Positions 7,907 through 33,968 of a stretch of 38,389 bases of DNA are shown here, in pieces (the stretch's first letter is position 1; every line of letters starts with the position of its first letter). Origin of the DNA: a virus. Where the stretch lies: positions 1 through 38,389 of the IMG/VR virus record IMGVR_UViG_3300028025_001979; one strand, 5' to 3'. A program made the translations under genes and the position numbers. The notes beneath the pieces were generated by a model that saw nothing but the letters and a program-made list of their open reading frames with translations, had not been told where the DNA came from and did no database searches.

Positions 7907-8302
7907 ATGTCATCTTTTACAAATTACACAGAGAATTTGGCTCTGACTTGGCTGTTTACAGGCTCGTCAGCAACTCGTCCAACAGCTTGGTTTGTTGGCC
8001 TGTTTACTGCTGCTCCAAGTGATACTGGCGGTGGTACTGAAGTTTCTGGCAGTGGCTATACACGAGTAGCCACAGGAACAATTTCCGGTAGTGGCACAGC
8101 AACCACGTTTACCAATGCAGCGGCCATTGAATTTGGTGCTGCTTCTGGTGGTAACTGGGGAACAATTGGCTGGGCTGCTATCTTTGATGCCTCTACTAGT
8201 GGCAACATGATTGCTTGGGCGCCCTTGACCACTGCCAAAGCAATTAACGATGGTGACATCTTCCGCATTCCGGCAAACAGCCTGTCTATCACACTGAGCT
8301 GA
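7907..8302 (+). CDS. Conserved virion-associated protein (FTxYTENLALTWLFTG family)
   Basis: A 131-residue beta-rich protein. The opening SFTNYTENLALTWLFTG and the WFVGLFTAAPSDTGGGTEVSG segment belong to a family found beside tail-fibre genes in many phages. Family members have no proven function but are probably structural. It begins four bases after the adaptor gene and ends one base before the next start region, in the same transcription unit. Confidence 0.8.
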   Translation: MSSFTNYTENLALTWLFTGSSATRPTAWFVGLFTAAPSDTGGGTEVSGSGYTRVATGTISGSGTATTFTNAAAIEFGAASGGNWGTIGWAAIFDASTSGNMIAWAPLTTAKAINDGDIFRIPANSLSITLS

Positions 8303-8303
8303 T

Positions 8304-8708
8304 ATGGCTGCTTACGGGCGTGGTGATTACGGTGGAGGTCGTTACTCCTTTGGGGCGTACTTAGGTGCGCTTGCAATAGTTGACGAGTCCACTGTTGTCA
8401 TTGCTGGAGACAAGATTAAAGATGCTCAGTTTGAGATCTTCTCAACTAGCTCAGTCTCCGTAGATGCTGTAAAGATATCGAACACATCGTTATCAATCGT
8501 AAGTAATTCTGAAATGACGGCTGCTGGCGGTTTGGATGCTGTTGGCAATGTTGACATGGTTGGAGTGAGTAACTTGACCATTCAATACAACCGTAAGCGT
8601 CCAGGCGAAGTCATCATCATTGATGTTTCTAGTGTTGCGATCAATGCTAGAAAGAAATGGGAAACAGAGCCTGATGTGTCTGAAATCTGGACAACAGTGT
8701 CTGTGTAA
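8304..8708 (+). CDS. Hypothetical virion protein
   Basis: A 134-residue protein with a Gly/Tyr-rich N-terminus (GRGDYGGGRYSFGAYLG) followed by predicted beta strands rich in Val, Ser and Asn. I do not recognise a family. The composition and its place between two tail-associated genes suggest a structural role. No clear ribosome site precedes the ATG at 8304, which lies one base after the upstream stop, so coupled translation is likely. Confidence 0.75.
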   Translation: MAAYGRGDYGGGRYSFGAYLGALAIVDESTVVIAGDKIKDAQFEIFSTSSVSVDAVKISNTSLSIVSNSEMTAAGGLDAVGNVDMVGVSNLTIQYNRKRPGEVIIIDVSSVAINARKKWETEPDVSEIWTTVSV

Positions 8709-25835: not shown

Positions 25836-26018
25836 ATGAGCCACATAACCAACATCGAAGAAGTCCTGGCATACGACCTGATCGTCCTTGCTACTGACAG
25901 ACTGTCCCAACACCTCCAAGAGGAAGATTGGGAGGCAGCTATTGTCGGTGCTTTAGTGAGGGCGGTAGAGATTGCCAGCCATAGAGAAGTTAAGCCTATC
26001 AATGAGATCTTTAAGTGA
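25836..26018 (+). CDS. Hypothetical small protein, first gene rightward
   Basis: A 60-residue acidic helical protein (SHITNIEEVLAYDLIVLATD...). It is the first gene after the divergent region and the ribosome site is weak (GGTAGG well upstream of ATG 25836). No domain is recognised. Its place as the leader gene of the replication operon would suit a regulator or host-takeover protein, which is speculation. Confidence 0.65.
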   Translation: MSHITNIEEVLAYDLIVLATDRLSQHLQEEDWEAAIVGALVRAVEIASHREVKPINEIFK

Positions 26019-26072
26019 TCTTGTGATACAGTGTTTTGAAACTTGGCTAGGGTAGCTCCCGAAAAGACGATT

Positions 26073-26105
26073 CGTTACCGTCCTGCCACTGTTTCTTCAG
26101 TAACG
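26073..26105. promoter_or_regulatory. Inverted repeat upstream of the replication protein gene
   Basis: CGTTAC (26073-26078) and GTAACG (26100-26105) are inverted copies. The wider AAGACG..TTAC and GTAACGTCTT arms also correspond if five bases are bulged. It lies 24 bp upstream of the start at 26130 and may be an operator or a hairpin in the leader. Confidence 0.4.
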
Positions 26106-26129: not shown

Positions 26130-26828
26130 ATGTACTTCTATCCGCATCATATTGGCGACTATAAAGCCGCCACTACCTATCTTTCCAACGAAGAAGATTT
26201 GGCTTATCGCCGTCTTTTGGAGCTGTATTACGACACCGAAAAAGCAATTGAGGATGACATTTCTTTGCTTTCCAAGAGGCTAAGGGTCACTCCTGAGTCC
26301 CTGTCTTTTGTTCTCAAAGAGTTCTTTAGCCACACCAAAGATGGCTGGAGAAACAAGAGATGTGATGTTGTCATCAAAGACTACCAAGAGATGGCTGAGA
26401 AAAACAGGAAAAATGGTAAGTTAGGTGGTCGTCCGAAAGGCAGTAAACAAGCCATAGAAAACCCAGTGGGTTTCCATTCGGTTCCCAGTGGCATCCCAGT
26501 GGTAACCCAACTCGAACCTAACCAAGAACCAATAACCAGAAACCAAAAACCAAAGAAAGCAACTACCGTTGCTGCGCCTGAAGGCGTGTCATTGGAAGTT
26601 TGGGAATCTTTTGTTCAACACAGAAAAGCCAAGAAGGCTCCAATTACGCCAATGGTTATTGGTTATCTTGAAGAGCAGTCAAAGCTTGCTGGATGGACTT
26701 TGGAAAACGTATTGAAAGAAACTTGTGTTCGTGGATGGCAATCTTTCAAAGCTGAATGGGTTGCAAATAAACCCATCCCTGGTCAACTGTCTGCTGCTGA
26801 CAGAGAAAAGCGTAGGTTGCTGTCATGA
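26130..26828 (+). CDS. DUF1376/YdaU-family replication protein
   Basis: A 232-residue protein. The N-terminus MYFYPHHIGDYKAATTYLS followed by EDLAYRRLLELYYDTEKAI is the DUF1376 signature found in phage and prophage replication modules. KNGKLGGRPKGSK (about 96-108) ends that domain, then a Pro/Asn/Gln linker leads to a C-terminal helical domain (about 155-232). It probably acts in initiation or helicase loading, in view of the DnaB-like helicase two genes on. RBS GAGG before ATG 26130. Confidence 0.85.
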   Translation: MYFYPHHIGDYKAATTYLSNEEDLAYRRLLELYYDTEKAIEDDISLLSKRLRVTPESLSFVLKEFFSHTKDGWRNKRCDVVIKDYQEMAEKNRKNGKLGGRPKGSKQAIENPVGFHSVPSGIPVVTQLEPNQEPITRNQKPKKATTVAAPEGVSLEVWESFVQHRKAKKAPITPMVIGYLEEQSKLAGWTLENVLKETCVRGWQSFKAEWVANKPIPGQLSAADREKRRLLS

Positions 26829-33070: not shown

Positions 33071-33242
33071 GCAAGAGATCTATGCCTATGCCCATCCTGA
33101 CTACATAGAGATCCTAGAGGGGATCAAGGTAGCTGTTGAGCAAGAGGAGAACTACCGCTGGATGATGGCTGCTGCTCAGGCTCGCGTGGAAGTATGGAAG
33201 ACCCAGAAATATTCAGAACGTGCAGAAGCCAGAAATCTTTGA
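32922..33242 (+). CDS. Conserved phage protein (ENPNKAIxYI family)
   Basis: A 106-residue protein. It starts MENPNKAIQYIINTAPLYAQ and carries YLEEMRKSVKAKLMK and EAYAHP-like YAYAHPDYIEILEGIKVAVEQEENYRWMM segments, with a helical end. I know this family from many phages as a hypothetical protein, often near packaging or replication genes. The ATG at 32922 is inside the previous gene in another frame, so it is translationally nested. Confidence 0.8.
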   Translation: MENPNKAIQYIINTAPLYAQAKGQRMYLEEMRKSVKAKLMKSCSETVLGKQEIYAYAHPDYIEILEGIKVAVEQEENYRWMMAAAQARVEVWKTQKYSERAEARNL

Positions 33243-33274
33243 TACACTACGCTCGTTGTAGTGACTCACAACAA

Positions 33275-33357
33275 ATGAAAGCCGTTTACACATGCGTTTG
33301 GCCCCCTGAGAAATCGTGGGGGGAGTCACCCGAATGCAGTTGTAAACGGCTTTTTTT
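33275..33357 (+). terminator. Structured terminator / possible RNA element
   Basis: AAAGCCGTTTACA (33278-33290) pairs with TGTAAACGGCTTT (33341-33353), a perfect 13-bp outer stem followed by a T-run (33351-33357). Inside are a 3-bp TGC/GCA pairing and a CCCCC/GGGGG hairpin (33302-33306 with 33318-33322). The distance between the arms is 50 nt, large for a simple terminator, so a structured leader or small RNA is possible. It ends the rightward early operon before the gene at 33592. Confidence 0.7.
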
Positions 33358-33591
33358 GTTTCACAACGACTCGGACACCATGCGGTACGTCAGTGGTGGA
33401 GTCTTAAATAACCCTGTTACACGAGCAAGCCAGAGCAGGGACGGTGGGCGAATTCCTAGAGCCGGGTGGTTGAAACAAGTCTGGGATAGTGCAGTGCGAG
33501 GACATGGCTCCAAAGATCACAGGCACAGAGCGAACTGTATTCACTTACGGTAAGGCTGTGCTTTGCTCAGACATTCACCAAAGATCACTTT
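33358..33591. other. Unassigned segment after the structured terminator
   Basis: A 234-bp stretch without a convincing gene. A 92-residue open frame (33275-33553) continues from the hairpin but looks like read-through of structured DNA. A 35-residue ORF (33504-33611, MAPKITGTERTVFTYGKAV...) overlaps the next gene by 20 bp and may be real. GC-rich tracts such as CAGAGCAGGGACGGTGGGCG suggest RNA structure. I see no tRNA fold. Confidence 0.45.
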
Positions 33592-33855
33592 ATGAACAAC
33601 AAACTCAATAAAGAAGAACGTATCCACCTTGCTCTGATCAAGGAATTACCTTGTTCAGTGTGTGATGCTCCCGGTCCAAGTGAGGCTCACCACATCAAAC
33701 AAGGCCTTCAGTACACCTGTGTAGCTCTTTGCGTTGACTGCCACAGAGGTCCAGTACTAGGCTTACACGGCCAAAAAAGGATGTGGGCCATCAAAAAGAT
33801 GGATGAGTTGGATGCCTTGAACGTCACTTTGAAGAATTTGTTCAAGATCATTTGA
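33592..33855 (+). CDS. Ref/NinG-like zinc nuclease
   Basis: An 87-residue protein with CSVCDAPGPSEAHHIKQG (C21, C24, H33, H34) and CVALCVDCHRGPVLGLHG (C43, C47, C50, H51, H59). This is the Cys/His core of the Ref-type HNH-like nucleases of phages, such as P1 Ref, which cut DNA in a RecA-dependent way. It probably assists recombination together with ERF and RusA. The gene stands alone between a terminator and a non-coding region. Confidence 0.78.
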   Translation: MNNKLNKEERIHLALIKELPCSVCDAPGPSEAHHIKQGLQYTCVALCVDCHRGPVLGLHGQKRMWAIKKMDELDALNVTLKNLFKII

Positions 33856-33968
33856 AATCCAAAAGCCTTTGGAATCTCAAAACTTTCAAAACCTTTGAGA
33901 TCCAAAAAATTGGTTAACTTGACTTCCAAAATCCTTAGCAAAAGTTTTCTGAAAAACTGCCTCTTTTA

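Follow-up and report, generated by a model that had tools for sequence, protein, structure and literature searches.

In bacteriophage λ, the promoter pR′ yields only terminated 6S RNA at first, and the late genes are transcribed once antitermination sets in. In P4, seqA and seqC are two sites for seqB, and bridge or omega RNAs match their targets. The Betaproteobacteria-1 RNA (RF02932) is typed as "Gene; sRNA" in Rfam, and we know of no function described for it. The locus considered here lies in a stretch of viral DNA of 38,389 nucleotides (IMG/VR record IMGVR_UViG_3300028025_001979, positions 1 to 38,389; hereafter the window), among whose products are portal, scaffold and primosomal proteins and a helicase. 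Upstream of the gene at 33592, one segment of about 104 nt, named A, has the appearance of an RNA with its own promoter and an intrinsic terminator, and the segment behind it is, judged by its covariation, a second structured RNA of about 215 nt, named B (Table 1). The folds of both RNAs and the promoter box are supported by the comparison of related sequences, and so are the linkage of A and B, the termination signal and the low copy number; both RNAs are presumably transcribed.

Table 1. Coordinates of the features in and next to the A-B cassette (window positions)
Feature	Position	Strand	Evidence or remark
Extended −10 promoter-like element, TGA-TACACT	33240..33248	+	Overlaps the upstream gene's stop codon; start would be near 33254
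RNA A, putative small structured RNA ending in a predicted intrinsic terminator	33254..33357	+	Model R1, 91.9 bits (window in model); fold z −6.4; covariation
RNA A, 5′ hairpin H1 (33255-33259 with 33268-33272)	33255..33272	+	Cells paired: 94.5% in A2, 96.1% in A4
RNA A, pseudoknot: H1 loop 33261-33267 (GTGACTC) with 33323-33329 (GAGTCAC)	33261..33329	+	7-bp pairing in all members compared
RNA A, outer terminator stem 33278-33290/33341-33353 (AAAGCCGTTTACA/TGTAAACGGCTTT), inner stem 33293-33299/33332-33338, C/G hairpin from 33302	33278..33353	+	Covariation in 51 sequences; outer stem of 13 bp without mismatch, 50-nt loop between its strands
RNA B, pseudoknotted by covariation, ending 3 nt before the next gene's ATG	33374..33588	+	Alignment A3; model R2, 234.7 bits (window in model)
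RNA B, helix P2 (33412-33417 with 33435-33440)	33412..33440	+	Pairing in 100% of cells; both-side changes in 4 of 6 pairs
RNA B, pseudoknot P3 (33442-33444 with 33462-33464) and P4 (33454-33460 with 33480-33486)	33442..33486	+	Cells paired: P3 99.5%, P4 84.7%
RNA B, internal repeat copy S, CCAAAGATCAC, after GGCT	33510..33520	+	Identity covariation with S′
RNA B, H-type pseudoknot P6 (33523-33528 with 33556-33561) and P7 (33529-33534 with 33562-33567)	33523..33567	+	
RNA B, 3′ repeat copy S′, CCAAAGATCAC, after TTCA, upstream of ATG 33592	33578..33588	+	Identity covariation with S
Neighbouring 87-aa gene, downstream of the cassette and outside it	33592..33855	+	phrog_1588, unknown function; HNH-like by motif reading only

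The preliminary description of this locus had drawn attention to a nested hairpin with a perfect 13-bp outer stem, whose 50-nt loop contains a C5/G5 hairpin as well as a TGC/GCA pairing, and to a T-run behind it. The hairpin is exactly of this form: C5 (33302-33306) lies opposite a G run from 33318, the TGC/GCA pairing joins 33293-33295 and 33336-33338, and the T-run ends at 33357. The fold of 33275-33360 has an energy of −43.9 kcal/mol against a mean of −21.8 (sd 3.5) for shuffled sequences, and 0 of 200 shuffles equalled it. The extent given earlier, from 33275 onward, is right for the hairpin but not for the start of the feature, which was moved about 20 nt upstream, to near 33254, because a 5′ hairpin and the promoter-like box belong to it; this 5′ end is derived from promoter spacing and the family boundary. 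In the aligned members of RNA A, the 5′ hairpin (H1), the long hairpin and the T-run are found together, and the loop of H1 pairs inside the long hairpin.

Related loci were fetched from IMG/VR by exact patterns, and conservation within the patterns themselves therefore carries no weight; the pseudoknot lies at positions outside them. The hairpin pattern was found in 71 contigs, a pattern from the 3′ part of the follow-on stretch in at least 119 and an independent 5′ pattern in at least 119; the follow-on 3′-pattern set includes at least one chance match (L130), which is kept in the counts for repeats, neighbours and ORF distances. In a free MAFFT alignment (A2) of 55 of the 59 A sequences, from which L083, L218, L228 and L235 were left out by hand, 98.5% of cells are paired, and both-side changes are seen in 6 of 28 pairs. 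Thirteen of the 28 pairs, in the outer arm and elsewhere, are invariant there, partly because the search pattern fixed them, and the number of further pair types is not above that of shuffles, 155 of 500 of which reach it. At least five T stand at the terminator in 55 of 55 A2 rows, the search pattern having forced only the first. A second alignment (A4, 51 sequences) was fitted to the model structure, which it therefore favours; in it, 98.2% of cells pair, against 39-58% with the partner slid, both-side changes occur in 19 of 28 pairs (9 of 13 in the outer stem and 6 of 7 in the inner), and 157 cells show such changes against 38.9 in shuffles. The pairing between the H1 loop and the terminator arm is perfect (7/7) in all 55 aligned members, with 15 loop sequences among them, and loops swapped between members give 7/7 in 75 of 2740 cases. 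Model R1, which does not contain the pseudoknot pairing, found 38 A sequences, the window included, in 98 hand-picked loci fetched through RNA B plus the window and L279; each of the 38 has the perfect 7-bp pairing, with 24 different loops, and swapping gives 17 of 1342.

The check that had been suggested, a covariation analysis with relatives, thus finds covarying base changes clearly present, and the opposite outcome, that of no covarying changes, did not arise. The earlier remarks that the hairpin is more structured than a terminator needs and that it may be a small RNA are both well supported by the covariation, the pseudoknot and the conserved promoter-like box. In the close relative L003, B is kept and the A-like hairpin is a different one, with GCTGGCAC/GTGCCAGC in matching arrangement as read by eye.

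A −10-like hexamer occurs in the 12-nt stretch just upstream of A in 52 of 55 sequences, against 2 of 55 for a control stretch of equal length, and its first base lies at −12 in 58% and at −11 in 36% of the 55. A −35-like hexamer 16-18 nt from the −10 is found as well in 27 of 55 A sequences. The −35-like hexamers peak at −36, where 59% of 54 A sequences have one, against a mean of 14% further upstream; in the window, a convincing −35 was not found upstream of RNA A. At the level of sequence, A has both a GC-rich hairpin with a T-run and a promoter-like box at fixed distance, as an intrinsically terminated small RNA should. Because the promoter-like box and the terminator stand together, A would be a transcription unit of its own and also the terminator of the gene before it.

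The stretch behind the hairpin had been described as GC-rich, with further complementary tracts. The enrichment is mild only (33361-33591 has 0.515 against 0.476 for the window, and 18% of 231-nt segments are as high), and the complementary tracts are real, being part of the second structured RNA seen by covariation. Taken as a single sequence, 33361-33591 is no better folded than shuffles (z 0.07), and the structure of the stretch after the hairpin is visible only by comparison with relatives. The structure of B was assigned by us and includes two pseudoknots; the alignment in which it was evaluated (A3) contains 70 sequences, near-identical rows and rows without a recognised second repeat having been dropped. 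In A3, 94.6% of cells are paired, against 34-48% in slid versions, 18 of 35 pairs changed on both sides, and 317 cells show such changes where shuffles give 90. The number of further pair types stands out less, since 23 of 500 shuffles reach it. The lower value for P4 (Table 1) seems to come from misalignment, MAFFT displacing the 3′ strand of this helix where a row contains an additional hairpin. For the second pseudoknot, three of the six pairs of P6 changed on both sides and none of P7, where changes are one-sided only.

B also contains a pair of direct repeats, S and S′, which differ between phages and match within most phages. Identity covariation links 33514-33519 with 33582-33587, 33504 with 33573 and 33497 with 33566. 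The longest run common to both flanks is at least 8 nt in 56 of 82 own places, against 71 of 600 mixed pairs, which also reach this length because many loci have one common S. The 5′-pattern set contains 112 places; in the 90 where both repeats were recognised by the script, the common run is 5-11 nt long and reaches at least 8 nt in 60. Counted by distinct S′ sequences, 24 of 36 in this set have a common run of at least 8 nt, and 16 of 1260 swapped pairs do. In the 22 places without a script-recognised second repeat, several show one by eye; L284, L330, L332 and L350 are examples that by eye seem to be without it. Among 92 rows, an ORF of at least 50 codons starts 7-14 nt after S′ in 26, closer in 2, 15-60 nt away in 36 and more than 60 nt away in 28, so S′ is not always a ribosome-binding site, and an action on the start of the next gene is not general. 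Matching repeats that change together are an unusual constraint, and they predict that the function is lost when one copy alone is edited and retained when both are edited in the same way, which opens the mechanism to direct test.

A complementary partner of S was sought in the fetched stretches and, for the window, in the whole record. Within 4 kb, complements of the own S occur at 0.066 per kb against 0.025 for other S, and the excess is one conserved terminator end, which complements the commonest S. In the fetched contigs, complements of S (8.05 against 7.88 nt) show no excess over control, and duplex energies from −300 to +700 nt reveal only the trivial repeat antisense, otherwise t −2.2 at best in about 65 tests. 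A 10-nt complement of the B repeat at window positions 26013-26022 is within chance. Near it, at 26040-26105 on the plus strand, an int-alpA RNA (Rfam RF02996) narrowly exceeds its cut-off with 35.9 bits; a primosomal/replication gene follows directly at 26130. A P4-like partner at the int-alpA RNA was considered and rejected, since this RNA is over the cut-off in 1 of 22 other records and appears in 2 of 22 at E ≤ 1.

Eighty phage loci were fetched with the protein of 33592-33855, the best 80 of 462 encoding a relative. By blastn, some relatives contain the A-B block, others have the same two genes without it in between, and in still others it is found elsewhere. Among the matches listed (34 of the 80 loci), no block is found in L008, L009, L016, L019, L020, L027, L039, L040 and L041, and in these nine the homology of the upstream gene runs to within about 30 nt of the next ATG. 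The 33228-33591 site is an apparent insertion hot spot; in L004, L006, L007, L017 and L024 it holds another gene end, methyltransferase-like by eye. The cassette is modular, turns up in numerous phage sequences from the environment and lies at different positions in phage genomes. According to model R1, A stands upstream of B in 36 of 98 B-pattern loci, with a gap of 11-30 nt in 31 and of 119-124 nt in 5; among the 62 without A, some are cut off upstream and many have other RNAs there. As far as can be seen by eye among the matches listed, other RNAs with promoter boxes and terminators seem to replace A in further loci. One such terminator RNA type occurs upstream of B in L092, L097 and L045; its promoter box is TATAAT, and its large hairpin, CTGTGTGGTCTTG...CAAGACCACAGAG, ends in GGGGTTTTTGC; further types are seen in L105/L347 and in L318/L351. 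L105 (8106-8179) and L347 (1419-1490) each have a tRNA gene some 220-280 nt before B. ARAGORN reported one tRNA in 28 A loci (L217, 4272-4346, far from A at 891-994), and none of the B-type blocks was read as a tRNA.

The 60 distinct stretches after A fall by single linkage into clusters of 37 (B2), 9 (B), 8 (B3), 2, 2, 1 and 1; the structure tests of what follows A covered B and RF02932, and nine members of the B2 cluster are among those listed. In B2 (L207, 3015 onward), several rows end in CCACCCTTGGNGAACCTATG, so a ribosome-binding site and start codon seem to be built in; B2 is possibly another structured RNA family. Towards its 3′ end, B3 (L216, L202, L212 and five other loci) contains sequences resembling DnaA boxes (GTGGATAA). 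When model R2, built from B, was run on 58 A-pattern loci outside the known B set, a single further B was found (L259, 201 bits), along with two weak short matches (L204, E 0.0016; L250, E 0.01). In 30 long contigs, hand-picked for holding A or B, one A is present in 24 and one B in 18; both are present in 12, and in 12 of 12 they are adjacent, at most about 125 nt apart. Second A matches in these contigs are the antisense shadow of the first, and a 30-nt B match of 14.2 bits in G381 was set aside; copies of A or of B number at most one in each. Strong covariation in a non-coding phage element that occurs at most once per long contig (n = 30) indicates that it is selected for.

A was matched in one named phage record, MW202484.1 (Podoviridae sp. 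ctfne034, Manatee Spring; record positions 33510-33609, corresponding to L279 3306-3405), which also has a B2-type match. The hypothetical protein UOF77725.1 of this record (33533-33892) overlaps 77 of the 100 bases of A and is possibly a false gene call; annotated phage "hypothetical proteins" can thus overlie RNA. Other queries against named phages gave nothing beyond MW202484.1 (A, B2-type) and MW202545.1, in which the gene at 33592 had a match, and plasmids gave no match. In host genomes (genome_contigs), the A pattern had 0 matches and the B pattern 13; none of the 13 was matched by model R2 at E 0.1, so they look like chance. A search for RF02932 in 369 genomes of one class, around a chance-match genome, gave 0 matches, a result that does not amount to absence.

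The commonest family among the neighbours, with 64 ORFs over 146 A and B places, matches replication initiation proteins (phrog_9474 and phrog_270, by one representative). The second is Cro-like (representative PF14549, P22_Cro), with 34 ORFs over 146 A and B places, counted in the two nearest genes; 49 of 105 B places have a member of a cluster of Cro-like ORFs at about −400 nt. Single copies stand beside terminase (L105, L188), HNH (L100) and C-5 DNA methylase (L264) genes, and no protein is common to most of the 146 places. By-eye names given to some neighbours, PAPS reductase (L049), zinc ribbon (L086), scaffold (L090) and VRR nuclease (L113), were dropped, as no family was over its cut-off; for the L113 protein, HSDR_N is just below its cut-off. 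The gene at 33592 had been called a zinc nuclease, a label that finds no backing in Pfam, where it has no match, or in PHROGs (Table 1).

The Betaproteobacteria-1 RNA is among the blocks that follow A. In L213, it follows A with 86.8 bits; the Rfam match (8239-8356) stops before the second part of the repeats and the 3′ part (8342-8430). A pattern from the RF02932 region was found in 19 contigs; RF02932 was present in 11 of the 11 given to Rfam, and A, by model R1, lies upstream in 10 of 16 new loci. The 3′-side layout GGCTCC-S ... CACC-S′ is common to RF02932 and B, with the second motif present in 13 of 14 distinct RF02932 places. There, the common run is 7-8 nt in 11 and 5 nt in 2, nine distinct S′ occur, and 9 of 136 swapped pairs reach at least 7 nt. 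Both RNAs have A upstream, which is an association and not homology. The RF02932 model did not match B of the window at the gathering score, nor at E 5 in 33200-33640, and model R2 did not match L213 or L242 at E 0.1. In L369, L377 and L379, RF02932 comes after genes that we labelled helicase-like; the IMG numbers of L369 and L377 have what we take to be the isolate-genome form. At gathering scores, Rfam 15 has no match to A or B in the window or in the 30 further loci scanned, some of which do not contain both; under a lax threshold, 33200-33640 showed a single weak snoRNA match, on the opposite strand, and nothing credible. The analysis therefore adds two RNA families without an Rfam 15 match and a neighbour for the Betaproteobacteria-1 RNA.

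Because of its promoter-leader-terminator layout, a two-RNA cassette with a unit like λ pR′-6S RNA-tR′ is our first choice for the function, with a probability of about 0.6. It assumes that transcription of RNA A begins at a σ70-type promoter of its own and ends at the intrinsic terminator that A itself contains. The H1 loop would lock into the terminator arm by the 7-bp pseudoknot, giving a compact small RNA, and A would have two roles, as a stable small RNA and as the point where the unit stops. B and the gene behind it would be transcribed only when polymerase passes the terminator of A; A would thus limit transcription into B and the next gene, and B, which ends at the start region of that gene, would act in the read-through transcript. 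Several points weigh against this model: 62 of the 98 loci gave no A, a simple read-through product needs no structure in B, S and S′ are left unexplained, and an ORF start 7-14 nt after S′ is seen in only 26 of 92 rows.

The simplest alternative is an ordinary intrinsic terminator of the upstream gene followed by a spacer only. The strong GC-rich stem and T-run soon after a gene ending at 33242 fit it; however, a terminator needs neither the loop-arm pairing (55/55 and 38/38) nor a promoter box at a fixed place, and the "spacer" covaries, which makes this explanation very unlikely. That B is a small protein gene, a 57-aa ORF from 33380 to 33553 in the window, can be given almost no weight. 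The frame is open in the window, as part of ORF 33194-33553, and one plus-strand frame is open through 26 of 70 B sequences, but the codons from ATG to the first stop number 6 to 76 across members, the lengths of B spread over all three classes modulo 3 (28, 21 and 21), and base changes follow base pairs. Protein coding in 33361-33591 as a whole was rejected on the same spread of lengths and on the early break of the frame in many members. The preliminary description had named, as one possibility, a leader controlling the gene at 33592. In the window, the position of B directly before the ATG, with the 3′ repeat where a ribosome-binding site would be, agrees with a leader or riboswitch devoted to this gene, but the specific link is not supported: many relatives have homologues of the gene without A-B, and elsewhere the next genes are replication-initiation-like (phrog_9474), HNH (PF01844), terminase (PF03237, L188) or unassigned (one representative each). 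A leader of this kind is therefore quite unlikely.

The λ-like unit has two main rivals, an antisense immunity system and a replication R-loop. In the former, as in P4 CI or P1 C4, S and S′ would be two sites for one RNA encoded elsewhere. They change together between phages and stay alike within each, and a Cro-like gene is often upstream (in the B and A places counted above), but in the stretches searched no complementary partner exceeds control levels, and the int-alpA RNA is rarely found in other records; we regard this explanation as doubtful. In the latter, an RNA containing S would hybridise to template DNA at S′, and replication would start near replication genes. It is a main rival because it makes the identity of S and S′ necessary: identity, not complementarity, is what such pairing needs. 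The single copy in the 30 long contigs, the match of the commonest neighbours to replication initiation families and the place of the related Betaproteobacteria-1 RNA after the helicase-like genes are in line with it. Elsewhere, however, the neighbour is a terminase gene (L105, L188) or a DNA methylase gene (L264), and the R-loop seems improbable. If B were the RNA guide of a mobile element, its internal guide S would match the flank S′. Such a match at the 3′ edge and the presence or absence of the block at one site can be read in this way, but the empty sites listed (one site family) have no S′, so S′ seems to travel with B, and no recombinase or nuclease family is common to most loci; a mobile guide is hardly probable. 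A tentative and broader possibility is a widespread, single-copy, mix-and-match control by two RNAs, in which A (or a substitute), a pseudoknotted RNA with promoter and terminator, is joined to one of several large structured RNAs; those of the B and Betaproteobacteria-1 types have two phage-specific, co-changing matching segments of about 8-12 nt. Their identity would mean that the RNA of one copy acts on the DNA or RNA of the other; for example, it could hybridise to the template strand of the other copy. To our knowledge, no self-addressed RNA control of such kind has been described.

In the literature searched (titles and the first parts of abstracts), no description of A or B was recognised, and we therefore call them phage structured RNAs in an arrangement without description in that literature. 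P4 CI RNA and P1 C4 resemble them as phage regulatory RNAs, P4 having two like sites for one RNA; they differ in that no complementary partner of S was found in the stretches searched and no Rfam family matches A or B over its cut-off in the scanned loci. The put RNA of HK022 is likewise a structured phage RNA at the start of a transcript, whereas A ends in a predicted terminator and has a loop-arm pseudoknot. With the λ pR′-6S RNA-tR′ unit, A would have in common a promoter, a short leader RNA, a strong terminator and a single copy. Unlike the λ leader, A belongs to a covarying, pseudoknotted family with a conserved arm, and it is followed by a second structured RNA.
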